Source of the DNA: Halapricum sp. CBA1109
GTDB lineage: Archaea; Halobacteriota; Halobacteria; Halobacteriales; Haloarculaceae
Assembly (NCBI RefSeq): GCF_009741825.1
Contig: NZ_WPCA01000002.1
Coordinates: forward strand, 1-64,000
Direction of reading: 5' to 3'
DNA: 64,000 nt
The position numbers and the translations under genes were made by a program. The notes under the pieces are model-generated. The model did no database searches. It was given only the letters and a program-made list of their open reading frames with translations, and had not been told where the DNA came from. This document shows positions 12,934 to 23,423 of the stretch, piece by piece. How positions within the stretch are numbered: position 1 is the stretch's first letter; each line of letters starts with the position of its first letter.

Positions 12934-14072
12934 ATGGGGTACGTCGCCGTCGCCGCCGGCGAGGAGATAATCCAGCGGGCGGCCGACCTCTTCGAGAAAC
13001 AGCGTCTCGCCGGCGACAGCGAGGACGTGAGCGTCGACCAACTGGACGAGCAACTCGGACGGCTCACCGCTCAGGCGATGAGCGAGGGCGGCCTCTACGC
13101 CCCGCGACTGGCCGCGCTGGCGGTCAAACAGGCCCAAGGCGACACCGTCGAGGCCGCCTTCCTGTTGCGGGCCTACCGCTCGACGCTGGAGCGGTACGAC
13201 GAGACGCCCGCGGTCGACCCGGGCGAGATGATCGCCTCCCGGCGGGTGTCCCCGGCGTTCAAGGACGTGCCCGGTGGGCAGATTCTCGGCGCGACGAAAG
13301 ACTACACCCAGCGGCTGCTTGATTTCGACCTCGAAGCGGGCGAGCAGACCGACCCGACCGAGGCGTGGGACCTTGCGACGAGGGTGACCCCGAGCGACTC
13401 ACGAACGTCACGGAACTCCTCCGGTCGGAGGGATTGCTCCACGAACCGGACGAACCCGACGTCGAGGAACCGACGGACACCACCCGGGAGTCGGTGACGC
13501 ATCCGCCCGACCGGGACGCGGTGCTCCAGGAACTCGCCCGCGGCGAGACGGGCGCAGTGACCGCGCTGGGCTACTCCGCGCTCCGGGGGTACGGGCAGGT
13601 CCACCCGACGCTGGCGGAGGTTCGGGTCGGCCGCCTCCCCGTGCGCATCGAGCATCCCTACACCGACGAGGAGGTGACGGTCACCCACGCCGACGTGACC
13701 GAGTCCGAAGCCGTCGTCCCCGTCTACGAGAAGCGGGCGGACCCGCAGTTCGCGTTCGGCTACGGCCTGACGTTCGGCCGCAACGAGCGCAAGGCAATCG
13801 GGATGACAATCCTCGACGCCTCGATCCAACTGGACAGCGACGACGAACCGGCCGAGAACGCCGAGTTCGTCCTCGATACTATCGACGGGATGGACGCCTT
13901 CGGCTTCATCGAACACCTCAAACTCCCCCACTACGTCACGTTCCAGTCCATTCTGGACCGAATCCGGTCGATCCGCGAACGGAAGGGCGTGGGCGAAGCG
14001 GGAGCGGTCGATTCGGGCGGCGACGACGCCGCCGAACAGCCACCGGTCGCGGAGGCGAGCAACGATGACTGA
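12934..14072 (+). CDS. phnI: C-P lyase nucleosidase subunit PhnI (one frameshift)
   Basis: The N-terminal half reads to about 13380 with PhnI features (VSVDQLDEQLGRLTAQAMSEGG, SPAFKDVPGGQILGATKDYTQRLLDF). The rest continues in another frame with RGYGQVHPTLAEVRVG, GYGLTFGRNERKAIGM and EHLKLPHYVTFQS. Joining them at about 13378-13383 (lost base) gives about 379 residues, the usual PhnI length. PhnI catalyses the displacement of adenine from ATP by phosphonate with PhnG, PhnH and PhnL. Because both flanking genes are intact and coupled, a base-calling error is more likely than decay. The 3' end overlaps phnJ by 8 bases. Confidence 0.88.
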
Positions 14073-15156
14073 ACACACCACTACCGAGTCACGGGACGAA
14101 TCGACAGGCGGCGGGACGGCGGTGCCGACAGACTCCGTCGACGCCGCGCTCTCGGCGGTCGAGACCGAGGGGTTGTCGGGGTACAACTACGCCTACCTCG
14201 ACGAACACACCAAACGGGAGGTCCGACGGTCGATGCTGAAGGCCGTCGCCATCCCCGGCCACCAAGTGCCGTACGCCTCGCGGCCGATGCCGCTGGCCCG
14301 GGGGTGGGGAACCGGCGGCATCCAGGCGTCGCTGTCGCTTCTGGGACCCGAGGACACGCTCAAGGTGATCGACCAAGGCGCGGACGAGAGCGTCAACGCC
14401 GCCAACATCCGGCGACTCGCGGCAAACACCGCCGAGGTGTCGACGACGGCCGACACGACCGAGGCGGACCTGATCCAGAGCCGCCACCGCATCCCCGAGG
14501 AGGTGCTGACCGACGACCAACGCCTCGTGTTGCAGGTTCCGATCACCGACGCCCTGCGGAAGGTCGACCCCTCGGACGCCGCGAACCGGCGGCGACACGC
14601 CCACGAGAACTACGGGAAGATGTGGGTCCACCTCTACGAGAACGTCGTCGAGTACGGCGAGATAAACATCGCCTCGCGGTACCCGACGATGGTCGCGGGC
14701 CGGTACCTGATGGACCCCTCGCCCATCCCGCGGTGGGACGTGCCGAAACTCGACGACGCCGACCACCTGACGATTCTGGCGGCGGGCCGGGAGGCCCGCA
14801 TCTACGCCGTGCCGCCGCATACGGCCGTCGAGCCGTTGGCCTTCGAGGACCGGGCGTTCACCGTCGAGCGCTTCGCCGAGCAGGAGTGTCACGCCTGCGG
14901 CTCGACCGACACCTATCTCGTGGAGGTCTCGGAGGAGCCCGGGTCGGCTGCGGGCGGAGCGGGTGGGGAGGGGAACGGCGGTGCGGACGACGACGCTGAC
15001 GGCTTCGAGACGCGCTACGCCTGCAACGATTCGAGCTTCTGTGCAAAACGCCGCGGGGACCCTGACCTGCTCAAAGACCACCATCTCGACCGCTCCGGGG
15101 TCGACTGGGGCCCGGCGACACCGGACGCCGACGGGAACGGGGGTGGTGAGGCGTGA
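14065..15156 (+). CDS. phnJ: C-P lyase radical SAM subunit PhnJ
   Basis: 363 residues. PhnJ cleaves the carbon-phosphorus bond of ribose-1-phosphonate 5-phosphate with a 4Fe-4S cluster and S-adenosylmethionine. Core blocks are YAYLDEHTKREVRRSMLKA, PYASRPMPLARGWGTGG and MDPSPIPRWDVPKLD. The cysteines are Cys275 and Cys278 (ECHACGS) and Cys320 and Cys326 (ACNDSSFC), giving C-x2-C-x41-C-x5-C. The known E. coli spacing is C-x2-C-x21-C-x5-C, so about 20 extra Gly/Asp-rich residues sit between the second and third cluster ligands. Start and stop overlap phnI and phnK. Confidence 0.94.
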   Translation: MTEHTTTESRDESTGGGTAVPTDSVDAALSAVETEGLSGYNYAYLDEHTKREVRRSMLKAVAIPGHQVPYASRPMPLARGWGTGGIQASLSLLGPEDTLKVIDQGADESVNAANIRRLAANTAEVSTTADTTEADLIQSRHRIPEEVLTDDQRLVLQVPITDALRKVDPSDAANRRRHAHENYGKMWVHLYENVVEYGEINIASRYPTMVAGRYLMDPSPIPRWDVPKLDDADHLTILAAGREARIYAVPPHTAVEPLAFEDRAFTVERFAEQECHACGSTDTYLVEVSEEPGSAAGGAGGEGNGGADDDADGFETRYACNDSSFCAKRRGDPDLLKDHHLDRSGVDWGPATPDADGNGGGEA

Positions 15157-15983
15157 CCCTGTTGGAGGCGTCGGGCGTCGAGACGCTGTACGGGCCGGGG
15201 TGTCCGGACTGCCGCGACGCGACCGGCGACCGCGCCGGGACCAACCAGTGTCCCCACTGCGGGACCGTCGTCGCCTGCGCCGAGGCCGACCTCGACGTCG
15301 AGGGAGGCGAAGTGCTTGGCATCGTCGGCGAGTCGGGGTCGGGCAAGTCAAGCCTCGCCGAGGCGCTGGCGCTGGAACGCGACCCGGAGGCGACCGTCGG
15401 CGGCGAGGTGTCCTACGCCGGCCACGACGGGAACCTGCTGGACGTGGACTACCAGACCCGCCACGACCTGCGGACGGGCGACATCTCTCTGGTCCACCAG
15501 CACGTCCGGGACGGCCTCGACTTGGAGTTCACCGGCGGCGGCAACGTCGCCGAGAAGCTCCTCTCGGCCGGGTGGCGCTCTTACGAGGACGTGCGAGCGC
15601 GCGTCCGGGAGTTGTTCGAGGAGACGGAGATACCGGTCGCCCGGATGGACGACCCCACGCGGACGTACTCGGGCGGGATGCAGCGCCGCGTCCAGATCGC
15701 CCGTGCGCTGGCGACCGACCCCGACCTGGTCGTCCTCGACGAACCGACGACGGGACTGGACGTCAGCGTCCAGGCCCGAGTGCTCGACACCTTCCGGCGC
15801 GTCCAACGCGAGGAGGGCGTCGCGGCAATCGTCGTCTCACACGACCTCGGTGTCGTCCGCTTGCTGGCCGACCGGACGCTGGTGATGCGCCACGGCCGCA
15901 TCGTCGAGTCCGGACTCACGGATCGCGTGATGGAGGACCCCCACCACGAGTACACCCAGACCCTCATCAACTCAGTACTATGA
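15153..15983 (+). CDS. phnK: C-P lyase ATPase PhnK with N-terminal CxxC pairs
   Basis: 276 residues, GTG start inside the phnJ stop. Walker A GESGSGKSS lies near residue 58, the signature is YSGGMQRRVQIARAL, Walker B is LVVLDEPTTGLD, and the family end PHHEYTQTLINSVL is present. Before the ATPase core, CPDCRDATGDRAGTNQCPHCG at residues 12-32 gives two CxxC pairs that look like a zinc ribbon. PhnK docks on the PhnGHIJ core and drives its conformational cycle with ATP. The zinc-like insert is not present in E. coli PhnK as I recall it. Confidence 0.92.
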   Translation: MTLLEASGVETLYGPGCPDCRDATGDRAGTNQCPHCGTVVACAEADLDVEGGEVLGIVGESGSGKSSLAEALALERDPEATVGGEVSYAGHDGNLLDVDYQTRHDLRTGDISLVHQHVRDGLDLEFTGGGNVAEKLLSAGWRSYEDVRARVRELFEETEIPVARMDDPTRTYSGGMQRRVQIARALATDPDLVVLDEPTTGLDVSVQARVLDTFRRVQREEGVAAIVVSHDLGVVRLLADRTLVMRHGRIVESGLTDRVMEDPHHEYTQTLINSVL

Positions 15984-16720
15984 CAGCCCTATCAGTCGAA
16001 GGCTTAGAGAAGACCTTCGACGTGCACGTGCTCGACGACACGCAAGTCGTCGGGCTAGACGGCGTATCGTTCGACGTCCGCGAGGGGGAGTTCCTCGCGG
16101 TCGTCGGGGAGTCCGGCAGCGGCAAGTCCTCGCTGTTGAAGTGTCTCTACCGGACGTACGATCCGACCGCCGGGAGCGTCCGCTACTACGGTGCCGAGGA
16201 CGAAGAGACGGTCGACTTAGCCTCCTGTGGCGACCGCACCGTGATGGGTCTCCGCGGGGACGCCATCGGCTACACCTCCCAGTTCCTCGACGAGATACCG
16301 CGGGTCCCCGCCGTCGACGTGGTGGCCCGACCGCTGGTCGAACAGGGGACGCCGACGGAGGCGGCCCGGGACCGCGCCCGTGAGTTGCTCGACGCCCTCT
16401 CGGTCCCCGAGGCGTTGTGGGACGCCTACCCCGCGACGTTCTCCGGCGGCGAGCGCCAGCGTGTCAACCTCGCGCAGGCGCTGGCTCCGGACCCGGACCT
16501 GCTGTTGCTGGACGAACCGACCAGCGCGCTGGACCCGGAGACGCGACGGGACGCTATCGACCTGCTGGAGACGTCCCTCGGGGACGGGACCACCGTCGTC
16601 GGCGTCTTCCACGATACGGACGTGGTCGCGGCCGTCGCCGACCGGGTGGTCGTGCTGGACGATGGCGCTCTGGAGGCGGTCCTGCCGGTCGAGGCGTTCG
16701 ACGGCGAGGTGGGCCGATGA
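15980..16720 (+). CDS. phnL: C-P lyase ATPase PhnL
   Basis: 246 residues from the ATG at 15980, overlapping the phnK stop by 4 bases. Walker A is GESGSGKSS, the signature FSGGERQRVNLAQAL, Walker B LLLLDEPTSALD, with the PhnL-type IGYTSQFLDEIPRVPAVDVV. PhnL pairs with PhnK as a heterodimeric ABC module on the lyase core and supports the PhnI reaction. It overlaps phnM by 4 bases. Confidence 0.92.
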   Translation: MTALSVEGLEKTFDVHVLDDTQVVGLDGVSFDVREGEFLAVVGESGSGKSSLLKCLYRTYDPTAGSVRYYGAEDEETVDLASCGDRTVMGLRGDAIGYTSQFLDEIPRVPAVDVVARPLVEQGTPTEAARDRARELLDALSVPEALWDAYPATFSGGERQRVNLAQALAPDPDLLLLDEPTSALDPETRRDAIDLLETSLGDGTTVVGVFHDTDVVAAVADRVVVLDDGALEAVLPVEAFDGEVGR

Positions 16721-17889
16721 GTTCGACCGCACAGGCCGCCGAGCGTTCCGTCGCGGTCGTCGGCGGGCGACTCGTCACGCCCGAGGCAGTGATAGAGGGC
16801 GGCGTCCGCATCGAGGGCGACCGCATCGTCTCGGTCGGCGACGTGGACGCCGGCGCGGACACTGTGATAGACGCCGAGGGCCGTCTCGTCCTGCCCGGAC
16901 TGATCGACCTCCACGGAGACGACATCGAGGGCCACCTCCACCCGCGCTCGGGCGCCCGGATGGACATTCCCCTCGCGCTGGCCTCGGCCGACCGCGCGAA
17001 CGTCGCCGCGGGCATCACCACGAAGTTCCACGCCATCTCTTTCGAACTGGACGAGGAGGCCGACCGCTCGCCGGAACTGGCGGCGACGCTGACCGACGCC
17101 ATCTCGGAAGCGACTGACCTGCTGGCCGACCACCGCCTGCACGCCCGGTGTGAGGTCACACAGACGCGGTGTGTCGAGGCCGTCCTCGACGTACTCGACA
17201 ACGGCGACGCCGACTTGGTGTCCGTGATGAGTCACGTCCCCGGCAAGGGCCAGTTCCGGGACGTCGAGGCCTTCCGGGAGTACTACGAGAGCGCCGACGA
17301 GCACACCGCCGAGGAGGCCGACGAGATAATCGACGAGCGCACCGACATCCCGATGGCGACGATACGCGACCGGATCGACCGGGTCGTCGACAGGGCACAC
17401 GCCGCCGGTGCGGTGACGGCCTCTCACGACGACGAGAACCCCGCGGAGGTCCGGCGACTCGCGGAGTCGGGCGTCGATATCACCGAGTATCCCATCACGC
17501 TTGAGACCGCACAAGCGGCGGCCGAGTCCGGGATGACGACGGCGATGGGCGCGCCGAACCTCGTCCGCGGCGGGAGCCAGTGGGGCAACCTCGCCACCGC
17601 CGAGGGAATCGACGCCGGCGTCGTCGATACGCTGGTCGCAGACTACCACCCGCCGTCGCTTTTGGCGTCGGTGTTCGTCGACACCGGCGAGTCCCTCCCC
17701 GAACGGGTCGCACGGGTCAGCGCGAACCCCGCCGACGCCGCGGGCGTTCCCGACCGGGGTCGGATCGAGGAGGACAAACGGGCGGACCTGATCGTCGTCG
17801 ACCGGGAGCCGGCACCGACGGTCACGAGCGCGCTGGTCGCCGGGCGGCCGGTGTACCGCGCCGACGCCACCGCGGGGGGCCGGCGATGA
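16717..17889 (+). CDS. phnM: PhnM amidohydrolase (ribose triphosphonate diphosphohydrolase)
   Basis: 390 residues. The amidohydrolase metal site is visible as GLIDLHGDDIEGHLHPRSG near residues 65-83, with later SHDDENP and the motif FHAISFE. PhnM removes pyrophosphate from the 5-triphosphate intermediate, giving ribose-1-phosphonate 5-phosphate for PhnJ. The start overlaps phnL and the end overlaps the next gene, each by 4 bases. Length matches the family. Confidence 0.93.
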   Translation: MSSTAQAAERSVAVVGGRLVTPEAVIEGGVRIEGDRIVSVGDVDAGADTVIDAEGRLVLPGLIDLHGDDIEGHLHPRSGARMDIPLALASADRANVAAGITTKFHAISFELDEEADRSPELAATLTDAISEATDLLADHRLHARCEVTQTRCVEAVLDVLDNGDADLVSVMSHVPGKGQFRDVEAFREYYESADEHTAEEADEIIDERTDIPMATIRDRIDRVVDRAHAAGAVTASHDDENPAEVRRLAESGVDITEYPITLETAQAAAESGMTTAMGAPNLVRGGSQWGNLATAEGIDAGVVDTLVADYHPPSLLASVFVDTGESLPERVARVSANPADAAGVPDRGRIEEDKRADLIVVDREPAPTVTSALVAGRPVYRADATAGGRR

Positions 17890-18695
17890 CGGACCACCGC
17901 ATCGGCGCGGCGATGGACGTCCGGTTCGGGACGAGCGTCGCGGAGTTCATGGAGTACGTCACGGCCATCGGGCTGGACCACGTCGAGTTCAAGCGGGAGT
18001 ATCTGGCCGGCCATCCCGACACGCCAGACCCCGAGCGCGTTCGGGAACTGGCCGACGACTACGGCGTCAGCGTCACCTACCACGCCCCGTTCCGGGACTG
18101 GAACGTCGGGAGCTACGACGAGACGGTCCGGCGGGACTCGGTCGAACGCGTCAAACAGACGTTAGACGATGCGGCCGCCGCAGGCGCCACGAGCGTCGTC
18201 GTCCACGGCGGGTCGGTCCCGAAGCGGTACCCCGAGTGGGTACGGGAGCAGGCCCGCGAGAACGCGCGCCGGTCGCTCGCCGAGTGCGCCGAGTACGCCC
18301 AGATGGTCGGCGTCTCGCTGTGTCTGGAGAACCAACCGATAGACGAGCGCAAACGGCGCTACACGACGACGCCGGCGGACTTGGCCGCGATGGTCGACTC
18401 CGTCGACGTGCCGCCACAGTACCTCAGCGTCACGCTGGACGTGGGCCACGCGAAGGCCAACGGCCACGACTGGCGGACGTTCGTCGAGCAGTTCGGCCAC
18501 CGCATCCGCGTCTGTCACCTCCACGACAACGACGGCACCGCCGACCAGCACCGGCCCTTACCCGACTACGAGTCCGTCGTCGATGCCGTGCCGGCGAACT
18601 ACTTCGTCTTCGAGATGAAGTCGGTCGCGGACGTGGCCCGGTGTGTCGGTGCCGACCACGCGCCGCCCGAGACGGAGGTGCCGGCCGATGACTGA
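17886..18695 (+). CDS. TIM-barrel isomerase/endonuclease-IV-like enzyme in the phn operon
   Basis: 269 residues of the xylose isomerase-like AP-endonuclease 2 fold: ITYHAP-type strand VSVTYHAPFRDWNVG, then SVVVHGGS, SLCLENQP, SVTLDVGHAKANG and RVCHLHDNDG, supplying His, Glu, Asp and His metal ligands. It overlaps phnM and the following HAD gene by 4-8 bases, so it belongs to the operon. Standard operons here have phnN and phnP; this enzyme may process the cyclic ribose phosphate made by PhnJ. Fold is clear, reaction is inferred. Confidence 0.85.
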   Translation: MTDHRIGAAMDVRFGTSVAEFMEYVTAIGLDHVEFKREYLAGHPDTPDPERVRELADDYGVSVTYHAPFRDWNVGSYDETVRRDSVERVKQTLDDAAAAGATSVVVHGGSVPKRYPEWVREQARENARRSLAECAEYAQMVGVSLCLENQPIDERKRRYTTTPADLAAMVDSVDVPPQYLSVTLDVGHAKANGHDWRTFVEQFGHRIRVCHLHDNDGTADQHRPLPDYESVVDAVPANYFVFEMKSVADVARCVGADHAPPETEVPADD

Positions 18696-19354
18696 CACCT
18701 ACGACGCCGTCGTCTTCGACTGTGACGGCGTGTTGGTCGAACCGACCGACACCGCGGTGCTGGTCGACGCCGTCGTCGACGCCTTCGACGCGTTCGGCGT
18801 CGACATCGACCGCTCGGTCGCCCGCCGGTCGGTCACCGAGGACGAGGTGCCGACCGAAACGGCCCGCGAGCACGGTATCGACCCCGAGGCGTTCTGGCAC
18901 TACCGCGAGTTGACCGCCAGCCTCGCACAGCAGACCCACGTCCGGGCGGGCGGTAAGCCCGTCTACGACGACGTGGCCGCGCTGGCCGACCTGTCCTGTC
19001 CCATCGCTGGTGAGCAACAACCAGCACGCGACCATCGAGTTCCTGCTGGCGTTCCACGACCTGCCGGAGTTCGAGACGGCGCGTGGACGGCGACCCACGC
19101 TGTCGGGTGCCGCGGCGCGCAAGCCCGAACCGGAGTACGTCGAGGCCGCGGTGGCTGATCTGGGCGTCGAGGACGCCCTGTACGTCGGCGACTCCGAGAA
19201 AGACGTTGTCGCCGCACAGCGGGCCGGCATCGACGCGGCCTACCTGCGGCGCGACCACGTCGCGGACGTGACGCTCTCGGCCGAACCGACCTTCGAGGTG
19301 CCGGATCTGGAGCGGTTGGTCGAGCGAGCGACCGCGACCGAGCGGCGCGTGTGA
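18688..19354 (+). CDS. HAD-family phosphatase of the phn operon (frameshifted)
   Basis: The start shows the HAD nucleophile motif VFDCDGVLVEPTD at residues 7-19. The frame changes at about 19006-19011: the first frame ends in a non-family tail while the second reads LVSNNQHATIEFLLA, then RKPEPEY and YVGDSEKDVVAAQRAG (motif IV). The joined product is about 220 residues, normal for HAD subfamily IA. A gain of one base or loss of two in a GC repeat would explain it. It overlaps the TIM-barrel gene and is the last operon gene. It likely dephosphorylates a sugar phosphate from C-P lysis. Confidence 0.8.
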
Positions 19355-20639: not shown

Positions 20640-20927
20640 TCAGGCGCCGCTGGTGTCTCCCTCGAACGTGAGCGACGCCAGGATGAGCAACAGGCCGCCA
20701 GAGACGAGTGCCGCCTGGAGGAGCGCCGCCGACAGGAGCGACGTGCCGAGAACTTGATAGACGAGGCTCTCACAGATGGCGCCGACGCCGATGAACAGGA
20801 AGCCGGCGGCGACGTACCGCATCGCGTCGCGGTCGCTTCGCCGGTAGCCGTGGTACGCCAGCGAGGCGACGACGAGGCTGAGAACGAGCGTGATCAGCTT
20901 TGCGAGGAGTATCGGTGGCTGTATCAT
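20640..20927 (-). CDS. small membrane protein, DUF7521-like
   Basis: 95 residues with three hydrophobic segments (LAKLITLVLSLVVASLAYHGY, FLFIGVGAICESLVYQVLG, LLQAALVSGGLLLILASL). It overlaps the upstream HTH gene by 4 bases, and this HTH plus small membrane protein pairing is recurrent in haloarchaea. Function is unknown; the pair looks like a regulator and its membrane partner. Confidence 0.75.
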   Translation of the reverse strand: MIQPPILLAKLITLVLSLVVASLAYHGYRRSDRDAMRYVAAGFLFIGVGAICESLVYQVLGTSLLSAALLQAALVSGGLLLILASLTFEGDTSGA

Positions 20928-21283
20928 GTGCTGTCCCGGATATCCGTCCAGAGGGACGTGAAGGTATCAGCGAGTTCGTCACGTGTCGCCACCGAGAGGT
21001 CGAGGTCCCCGTCCGAGAGTTCGACGTGGAGTTCTTCGAGCGTCGTCTCGAACACCCGGCGGTGTGAGCCGTCGGCATCCACAGTCGAGTGCTCGTCGAC
21101 GAGGTCGTGCTCTTCGAGTGTGGATACGCGGCGGTAAACCGTCGCCAACGATGCGTCGCAGAAACGGCTGAGCTCCTTGGCCGTCTGTGGTTCCCTATCG
21201 GCCGCCAGCAGAATCCGTCGTGCGTACTCGTCGGCGAGCAACTGAAAGATGGCCTCGGGAGCCTGCTCGCCACCGTTGCTCAT
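20924..21283 (-). CDS. winged-helix transcriptional regulator
   Basis: 119 residues starting MSNGGEQAPEAIFQLLADEY at 21283. The HTH is ADREPQTAKELSRFCDASLATVYRRVSTLEEHDLV, followed by a wing (TVDADGSHRRVFETTLEELH). An upstream in-frame extension is not family-like, so the shorter start is taken. It overlaps the DUF7521-like gene. It may control that gene and the divergent CPxC membrane genes that begin at 21394. Confidence 0.82.
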   Translation of the reverse strand: MSNGGEQAPEAIFQLLADEYARRILLAADREPQTAKELSRFCDASLATVYRRVSTLEEHDLVDEHSTVDADGSHRRVFETTLEELHVELSDGDLDLSVATRDELADTFTSLWTDIRDST

Positions 21284-21393: not shown

Positions 21394-21837
21394 ATGCAGC
21401 AGTTCGGGAGGCGTCTCCGCAAGGCGACTGGGTTCGGCGTCGGGTCGTTCGCGTTGTTCGGTCTCGTGACGGGGCTGATACCGAACCCGGTGTACGTTCG
21501 GATGGTGCCGCGAACGGGCCTCGATTACGCGTTTCTCCTGTTGACCGCGGGCTTTCTGGGTCTGTACACCGTCCAGCGAGCGCCCGGCGGGACCGGAGCG
21601 GACACGACCGCCGGCGCGAGTACGGTTCTCGGATTTCTAGCGTTCGGCTGTCCAGTCTGTAACGCCGTCTTGCTGACACTGTTCGGCAGTTCCGCTCTTA
21701 TGACGTACTTCGACCCCCTTCGCCCGCTTTTCGGAGTTGTCAGTGTGGCTCTGTTCGGGGGCTTGCTCTACGTCCGCAGGCAGCGACCCTGCGAGCAGTG
21801 TGTCGACGGCGAACCGACGGGAACCACACCCGAGTGA
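21394..21837 (+). CDS. membrane protein with intramembrane GCPVC motif
   Basis: 147 residues with about four membrane segments. The third carries FLAFGCPVCNAVLLTLFG, placing a CPxC pair inside the membrane. A cytoplasmic tail ends with RRQRPCEQCVDG, a second CxxC. The arrangement recalls mercury-type or thiol carriers (MerT/VKOR-like logic) but I do not recognise the family. It lies 18 bases before the next plus-strand gene. See the companion minus-strand proteins at 22129 and 22668. Confidence 0.75.
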   Translation: MQQFGRRLRKATGFGVGSFALFGLVTGLIPNPVYVRMVPRTGLDYAFLLLTAGFLGLYTVQRAPGGTGADTTAGASTVLGFLAFGCPVCNAVLLTLFGSSALMTYFDPLRPLFGVVSVALFGGLLYVRRQRPCEQCVDGEPTGTTPE

Positions 21838-21855
21838 GTGTCCGGAGGGAGAACG

Positions 21856-22122
21856 ATGGCATCCACGGACACGACTTCGGACGGGGACGGCGAGACGACG
21901 ACTGCCCGGTGGCCACTGCTCGGGCTCGGTGGTGTCGTGAGCCTCTGCTGTCTGTTCGCAACACCGGCGGCGACTGGCGCGGCAGGCGCCACGGTCAGCG
22001 GCGGGGCGACGGCGGCGGTAGGTGGTGGGCTCGTCCGCGTGCTCGTCACGGCACTGACAGTCGGCCTCGTCGGCCTCGTGGTCCGCTATCGACTCGATAC
22101 GGACTGTTCCTGTGAGGCGTGA
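21856..22122 (+). CDS. small membrane protein with C-terminal CxC
   Basis: 88 residues from the ATG at 21856, which has a GGAGGGAGA Shine-Dalgarno-like stretch 5 bases ahead (a GTG at 21838 is an alternative). Two membrane segments (LLGLGGVVSLCCLFATPAA, VLVTALTVGLVGLVVRY) carry a Cys-Cys pair, and the tail ends DCSCEA. It follows the GCPVC protein and converges with the GCASC protein. Cysteine placement suggests a metal or thiol relay. Confidence 0.65.
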   Translation: MASTDTTSDGDGETTTARWPLLGLGGVVSLCCLFATPAATGAAGATVSGGATAAVGGGLVRVLVTALTVGLVGLVVRYRLDTDCSCEA

Positions 22123-22128
22123 CGGCCG

Positions 22129-22671
22129 CTACTCGGATTCGACTGCCGACGCGACGGTACAGTGTCGCGGGTCACCGAGCCGGGAGAGATAGCCCACGAG
22201 CAAGAGCAGGCCTGCCAGCCGGAGGAGGTTCCCGTCGAACGGCAGTGTCGCGAGTGCGCTGGCAAAGCCGACCAGTCCGAGGACGCCTGCCCCACAGCTC
22301 GCACAACCGGAGGCGAGGAGCCCGGGCAACACGGCAGAGAGCCCACGCGCGTCGGGTCGACCGGCCGACCGAACACGCCCGAGTGCGCCCGTCACCGCGA
22401 TACCGGTCGTGATGGCGTACACGACGACGAGCGCGAGGCCGCCCGCACCCGCAGTCCGGTAGGTGTTTCCCGTCAGCGCGATGACTGCATCGTCGACGTA
22501 CCCGAGATCGGCGCCCAACAGCTGCATCGAGTAGGTCGGGAACGAGCTCAAAACGAGCAGGCAGTAGGTCACGGCCGCGACGAGGAGTGTCAGGACTGTG
22601 CGCCGGGTCGTCGTGAGCGGATAGGCGAGCGCTCCGCGGAACCGAATCACGTGGGCCCGGAGGTCGATCAT
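22129..22671 (-). CDS. membrane protein with intramembrane GCASCGAG motif
   Basis: 180 residues with about four membrane segments. The motif LASGCASCGAGVLGLVGFASALATLPF lies in the third segment, similar in position to the GCPVC motif of the 21394 protein, so the two may be distant relatives. It overlaps the DsbA-like gene by 4 bases (ATGA) and is translated after it. It may be the redox partner or substrate channel of that protein. Confidence 0.75.
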   Translation of the reverse strand: MIDLRAHVIRFRGALAYPLTTTRRTVLTLLVAAVTYCLLVLSSFPTYSMQLLGADLGYVDDAVIALTGNTYRTAGAGGLALVVVYAITTGIAVTGALGRVRSAGRPDARGLSAVLPGLLASGCASCGAGVLGLVGFASALATLPFDGNLLRLAGLLLLVGYLSRLGDPRHCTVASAVESE

Positions 22672-23423
22672 ACGTTTTCGACGGTCGTGATGGCCTCGTC
22701 GAACCGCTCTTTCGGCTGTGCACCGACGAGTTTCCCCGCCTCGTCGGCGTCGCGGTTGTAGAGTACGAACGCCGGCGAGCCACGGAAACCGAGCTGGCGT
22801 GCGCGCTCGATATCGGTAGCGATAGCCGCCTCGATGTCCGTCCGGTCCTCGTCCATACAGGTTTCGACGGCCGCCGCATCGACACCGTCGACTCCCCGTG
22901 TGATCTCGAGGAGGTTCGACCTGCTGGCCCACCCCGATCCCTTCTCGCCTTGGGCATCGTACACCGACGAGTGCCACGCCCAGTATCGGCGCGGGTTCTC
23001 GTCGCGAACCTGTCGCCAGACACACCGGTCCATCACTGCCGCGGTCATCGACCCCGCACTCAGATAGGGGAACTCGATGAAGACGACGCGGACGGTACCG
23101 GGAGCGACGTGGTCGTCGACGAGTGCCGGAAACGTGTTCTCCTCGAACCGACGGCAGAACGGACACTGGTAGTCCCCCCAGTAGTACATATCGAGGGGTG
23201 CGTCCATACTCCCCATAACGGGATGTCCGTCGAGTTCGATGCCGAAACCGGTCGACCCGGTGGTTCTGTGAAACGCTACGTCGTCGGCCGAGGAGGTGGT
23301 GTCCGTGTCCGTCCCCCGATTGTCGAGCGTCGCGCCTGCGTAGACGACGCCACCGGTGACGGTCGCTGCCCCGAGACCGGCCACCACAGCGCGGCGTGTC
23401 GTCGACGCGTCTGGGCGTTCCAT
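22668..23423 (-). CDS. DsbA-family thiol oxidoreductase, Tat-exported
   Basis: 251 residues. An N-terminal twin-arginine signal (TTRRAVVAGLGAATVTGGVV) precedes a DsbA-like thioredoxin fold with YYWGDYQCPFCRRFEE as the CPFC active site and a later cis-Pro region (LGFRGSPAFVLYNR). The start at 23423 (MERPDAS) puts the signal at the correct place. It acts outside the membrane, oxidising thiols or passing electrons. The coupled membrane protein at 22129 with a CxxC is its natural partner. Confidence 0.85.
   Translation of the reverse strand: MERPDASTTRRAVVAGLGAATVTGGVVYAGATLDNRGTDTDTTSSADDVAFHRTTGSTGFGIELDGHPVMGSMDAPLDMYYWGDYQCPFCRRFEENTFPALVDDHVAPGTVRVVFIEFPYLSAGSMTAAVMDRCVWRQVRDENPRRYWAWHSSVYDAQGEKGSGWASRSNLLEITRGVDGVDAAAVETCMDEDRTDIEAAIATDIERARQLGFRGSPAFVLYNRDADEAGKLVGAQPKERFDEAITTVENV

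Follow-up and report, generated by a model that had tools for sequence, protein, structure and literature searches.

A locus in the haloarchaeon Halapricum sp. CBA1109 raises the question of whether three cysteine-bearing membrane proteins and an exported DsbA-like protein, encoded side by side, act together in thiol chemistry across the membrane. To our knowledge, few scaffolds move electrons across a membrane for extracytoplasmic thiol chemistry, namely DsbD/CcdA, DsbB and VKOR. The window analyzed here is a stretch of 64,000 nucleotides (contig NZ_WPCA01000002.1, positions 1 to 64,000), for which an initial annotation had suggested a transmembrane electron or metal relay resembling VKOR-DsbA logic on other scaffolds. 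We refer to the genes concerned as A to F:

A, 21394-21837, plus strand: 147 aa, predicted 4-TM protein, GCPVC (C86, C89) in TM3, C-terminal CEQC (C133, C136)
B, 21856-22122, plus strand: 88 aa, predicted 2-TM protein, CC (C31, C32) in TM1, CSC near the end
C, 22129-22671, minus strand: 180 aa, predicted 4-TM protein, GCASC (C123, C126) in TM3, C171 near the C terminus
D, 22668-23423, minus strand: 251 aa, twin-Arg (RR) N terminus, BdbD/DsbA-like, CPFC (C87, C90), second cysteine pair C134/C189
E, 20924-21283, minus strand: HTH_20-type regulator
F, 20640-20927, minus strand: DUF7521 membrane protein

The gene caller did not pick up A in the window, and it was recovered through homology; the start of B is best placed at 21856 rather than at 21838. 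What the initial annotation had read from the DNA holds: A and C, each predicted to have four TM segments, both carry a GCxxC motif in hydrophobic segment 3, B is a third membrane protein with a CC and a CxC motif, and the exported CPFC protein is coupled to a membrane protein, the stop codon of D and the start codon of C sharing ATGA. An HTH regulator does adjoin these genes; it overlaps F, also part of the conserved block, in the same manner (F start, E stop). This gene pattern exceeds chance, as judged from the conserved cysteines and the conserved neighborhood described below.

Neighbors of the module are a glutamate dehydrogenase gene and a C-P lyase (phosphonate) operon (13365-18695, plus strand) encoding PhnI, PhnJ, two ABC ATPases, a PhnM-like amidohydrolase and a TIM-barrel isomerase-like protein; as called, the PhnI gene matches the model in its C-terminal part only. 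A HAD-type hydrolase gene (18643-19354, plus strand) is seemingly split across two frames near 19.0 kb, which suggests a frameshift or an assembly error. The source assembly comprises 266 contigs and is 78.65% complete. No sulfur genes are found within a few kb of the module in the window, and we therefore take its functional context from relatives.

Conserved cysteines in four protein families

Cysteine conservation, on which the proposal of a thiol system depends, was confirmed for all four proteins, with the module cysteines invariant or nearly so. C86, C89, C133 and C136 are invariant among 33 homologues of A, as are C123, C126 and C171 among 49 sequences of C. In B, C31 and C32 are invariant and the last cysteine is at least 90% conserved (20 sequences); in D, C87 and C90 are invariant, with C134 and C189 conserved to at least 90% (30 sequences). 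When bacterial homologues of A are added to the alignment, C86-P-x-C89-N and R36 stay invariant and the C-terminal cysteine pair becomes variable.

D scores 68 bits against Thioredoxin_4 (PF13462, cut-off 23.2) and 35.5 bits against DSBA (PF01323, cut-off 25.6), and its best match in the PDB is BdbD. The twin-Arg N terminus and the CPFC motif are conserved in its homologues, and by these sequence criteria D is a predicted exported DsbA/BdbD protein. Its second cysteine pair is spaced like Cys140-Cys192 of Mycobacterium tuberculosis DsbA, a VKOR-linked oxidase (PMC3792642).

Hydropathy and charge predict four transmembrane segments for A and C and two for B, and the charge bias suggests that both termini of A and C are cytosolic. 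An AlphaFold2 model of C is of moderate quality, has a helix break at GCASC and finds no PDB match at E<=0.001; the model of A is poor. None of the three membrane proteins scores above a curated cut-off in Pfam or NCBIfam, and their families look undescribed in the resources searched. We considered A as a selenoprotein and rejected this reading, since the TGA codons "inside" its matches are normal stops just past the C-terminal CxxC. A common ancestry of A and C was likewise rejected: their similarity is largely lost once the cysteines are masked, and we thus claim a shared motif and layout and nothing more.

A clustered module in Halobacteria and its bacterial relatives

The expectation that these genes co-occur in other haloarchaea is borne out. 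Across the order (146 genomes), A is strongly matched in 35 genomes, B in 45, C in 35 and a close D (E<1e-50) in 35, and C and close D occupy exactly the same genomes (35/35). A and C occur together in 27 genomes (odds ratio 43, p=1.6e-15; related genomes are not independent). Scanning the alignment of C against GTDB genomes yielded 70 named loci, all from Halobacteria; strong matches to C are confined to the order in a search across the phylum and to Halobacteria in a search of plasmids. Within 6 kb of C we find D in 68/70 loci, E/F in 45/70, A in 44/70 and B in 30/70, and no module genes in 40 random windows of similar size taken elsewhere in the same genomes. The set remains clustered despite varied gene orders, which include a single D-C-A-B operon, D-C facing A-B with E-F behind, and D divergent from C-A. 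Same-strand ATGA overlaps link D to C in 27 of 38 pairs and C to A in 22 of 32. C is the constant genetic partner of D.

When the two closest genes outside the module were counted without preselection, thioredoxin ranked first; it lies near C in 28/70 loci compared with 0/40 random windows. Further neighbors at the 70 loci are a Sta1-like HTH protein (18), a methyltransferase (17), DUF302 (15), SCO1/SenC (15), CoA-disulfide-reductase-like (13) and TlpA-like (10) proteins, and a CcdA-like protein (8; labeled from its motif and a weak match). MBL-rhodanese, persulfide-dioxygenase-like genes are present in 14/70 loci versus 1/40 random windows. TusA, DsrE2 and thioredoxin reductase also recur, YeeE halves are among the recurrent genes of sulfur islands, and many C-D loci have none of the sulfur genes (TusA, DsrE2, rhodanese, YeeE, TauE) within 6 kb. 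The conserved module with its cysteines, the translational coupling and the sulfur/thiol context are thereby established. In several loci a family of ~130 aa proteins with no Pfam match (c28; e.g. L139:8899-9297, L125:7332-7730) sits between thioredoxin and D.

Homologues of A found on bacterial plasmids extend the family to Actinomycetota, Alphaproteobacteria and Thermomicrobiota, where they repeatedly adjoin DsbA-like and CcdA/DsbD genes within rhodanese, TauE and DUF302 islands. Azospirillum has DsbD-DsbA-A, followed by a sulfurtransferase and an MBL hydrolase and, at a greater distance, by TauE, YeeE/YedE and ArsR. Pseudonocardia has DsbA-CcdA-A with 4-nt overlaps, and Streptomyces has A-DsbA-like-CcdA together with rhodaneses and TauE. 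In Rhodococcus, CcdA and DsbA-like genes face A-DUF302; DsrE is also present, as is a peroxiredoxin in two records. A is paired with TlpA in Mycolicibacterium and lies between ArsR and a rhodanese in Rubrobacter; the Thermomicrobium locus is without DsbA/CcdA-type partners, and in Sinorhizobium, Gemmobacter and Tabrizicola A has other (copper or cytochrome) surroundings. The CPFC motif is also present in the actinomycete DsbA-like partners. A is tied to DsbA-like and CcdA/DsbD genes across both domains, and its bacterial link to them is the strongest functional clue that we have, strengthening the reading as a transmembrane relay.

SUL and CYT modules described on Arthrobacter plasmids contain CcdA, DsbA and DsrE near sulfur dioxygenase, rhodanese, TauE and DUF302 (PMC6305408), and thus share with the loci described here the presence of CcdA, DsbA and DsrE among sulfur genes. 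The Arthrobacter plasmid records contain homologues of A, whereas the accessible part of that report names no A-like protein and reports no C, B, E or F.

A possible thiol relay and its rivals

We propose that A, B, C and D work together as a thiol relay of the envelope, which spans the membrane with D outside and serves reactive-sulfur/thiol homeostasis; to this reading we give an even chance. Once exported, D would use its CPFC motif for thiol-disulfide (or persulfide) chemistry on the outer side of the membrane, with C and A conveying reducing equivalents across it. In A these might pass from cytosolic thioredoxin to the C-terminal CxxC, on to the mid-membrane CPxC and finally to the CPFC motif of D; C could act likewise via its C-terminal cysteine and GCASC, and B may be a small accessory protein. 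The module would then shield thiols outside the cytoplasm from stress by reactive sulfur, oxidants or metals. The initial suggestion, a relay of electrons or metal built on other scaffolds, is still the best reading, with the bacterial DsbA/CcdA context in its favor; from these data we infer topology, direct electron transfer, its direction, any role of metals and the cargo (electrons, sulfane sulfur or a soft metal). Several findings speak against a thiol relay: the gene neighborhood fits electron, metal and sulfur cargo alike, the C-terminal cysteine pair is absent from some bacterial homologues of A, some of these lie in copper or cytochrome surroundings, and the window locus itself is without sulfur genes.

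CcdA/DsbD-type reductive relays, which include SoxV-SoxW, are among the closest known systems. As in DsbD-DsbC, CcdA-TlpA/ResA and ScsB-ScsC, membrane cysteines are combined with an exported thioredoxin-fold partner, a cytosolic thioredoxin is encoded nearby, and bacterial A genes adjoin CcdA/DsbD genes. In contrast to these systems, A, B and C are unrelated to CcdA and are shorter (2 to 4 TM), and A and C place the GCxxC pair in one helix, whereas CcdA/DsbD have a single cysteine in each of two helices. A CcdA ancestry of A and C was rejected, comparison with CcdA profiles giving E 0.18-0.3, no similarity; the PC(x)LLP-type CcdA motif is borne by a separate neighboring protein. With thioredoxin, CcdA and TlpA genes nearby, and with the C-terminal cysteines of A and C predicted to lie in the cytosol, reductive logic of the DsbD/CcdA type is favored over that of VKOR, and a reductive direction is more likely than an oxidative one.

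The main rival is an oxidative pair, in which C (or A), though unrelated in scaffold, would re-oxidize D in the manner of DsbB/VKOR. We consider this unlikely, and the same holds for its corollary that electrons from D would enter the respiratory chain and so let D form disulfides in exported proteins. As in DsbA-DsbB, BdbD-BdbC and DsbA-VKOR, a BdbD-like protein is genetically tied to a 4-TM cysteine protein, here C as its obligate partner, and the second cysteine pair of D recalls the VKOR-linked M. tuberculosis enzyme. DsbB is also scarcer in genomes with C (5/35 versus 49/111; p=0.001, uncorrected for kinship). However, depletion is not significant for VKOR and DsbB combined (p=0.24), so that C as a plain substitute for DsbB/VKOR was rejected. 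A DsbA-DsbB pair is also encoded elsewhere in at least one genome, G098. The cysteines of A and C also differ in number and side from those of DsbB and VKOR: these use two cysteine pairs, whereas C has a single CxxC plus another cysteine, its last, which is predicted to be cytosolic, and the neighboring genes are of the thioredoxin and CcdA type. Neither VKOR nor DsbB was found in the source genome, as far as it is complete (78.65%), and A, B and C match neither VKOR (PF07884) nor DsbB (PF02600) in Pfam scans. The likeness to VKOR-DsbA logic drawn in the initial annotation is thus an analogy at most. A relay of sulfane sulfur, with D taking it up outside as a persulfide and C/A delivering it to TusA, DsrE or rhodanese on the inside, would account for the recurrence of TusA, DsrE2, rhodanese/persulfide-dioxygenase-like genes, YeeE halves and TauE in the islands of both domains. 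We find it very improbable, considering that many C-D loci are without these genes within 6 kb, that the YeeE and TauE transporters already handle sulfur transport there, and that a dithiol CxxC fits disulfide exchange at least equally.

The MerT profile bears on a soft-metal relay, in which A (and B) would be MerT/MerF-like carriers of Cu(I)/Hg(II) between the exported thiol protein and the cytosol. The archaeal A reaches 14.5 bits against MerT (PF02411), under the gathering cut-off of 32.9, and a weak match is seen in 4/33 homologues. Profiles of bacterial A compare with MerT at E 7e-7, and at 1.2e-6 with cysteines masked (a 64-column match, with only 6 sequences on the MerT side); the best of 41 decoys gave 3.5e-3 and unrelated membrane families >=0.03. 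The last hairpin of A aligns with TM1-TM2 of MerT, including the first transmembrane cysteine and a P-x-R-P stretch, and A resembles MerT (by layout MerC/MerF) in having a transmembrane and a C-terminal cysteine pair; SCO1 in 15/70 loci and, in some bacteria, copper genes in the vicinity of A point the same way. Yet A differs from MerT in its two extra N-terminal transmembrane segments, in CPxCN instead of CC and in its DsbA/CcdA partners, and merA, merP and merR were not seen in annotated bacterial A loci or among the leading families of the neighbor census. Profile comparison shows no similarity between C and MerT, and the neighbors are more commonly thioredoxin, CcdA and persulfide genes. 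Metal carriage is accordingly improbable in our view, and equally so the role that it would assign to D, namely to keep thiols reduced for metal binding.

Returning to the thiol relay, we tentatively suggest, at somewhat less than an even chance, that A and C represent a new class of trans-membrane relay, in which a GCxxC hairpin would connect thioredoxin in the cytosol with an exported CPFC protein. The hairpin of A would share ancestry with MerT, the cargo would be electrons (or sulfane sulfur) and not mercury, and the class would serve archaea and bacteria, beside or replacing CcdA/DsbD. Conserved operons here combine three unnamed membrane families, one of them (A) common to archaea and bacteria, with a DsbA-like enzyme and genes for sulfur stress. 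For haloarchaea, and for the reactive-sulfur islands on plasmids of bacteria, these families are candidates for missing envelope redox parts, and they may connect MerT-type hairpins to thiol redox.

Related and damaged copies

Halobacteria have a second family, C' (GAGCAACGS), to which C is related (profile comparison E 3e-12). Members of C' (loci L236-L246, e.g. L236:4868-5464) have a C-terminal GCP and lie directly behind a DsbA-like gene; like bacterial A, C' matches no Pfam or NCBIfam family above cut-off. Among the halobacterial loci we also noticed a D homologue with an in-frame TGA (L139:8095-8820), a frameshifted C homologue (L105:10658-11206) and a short remnant resembling C/A (L152:7526-7837), which together suggest turnover of the module.
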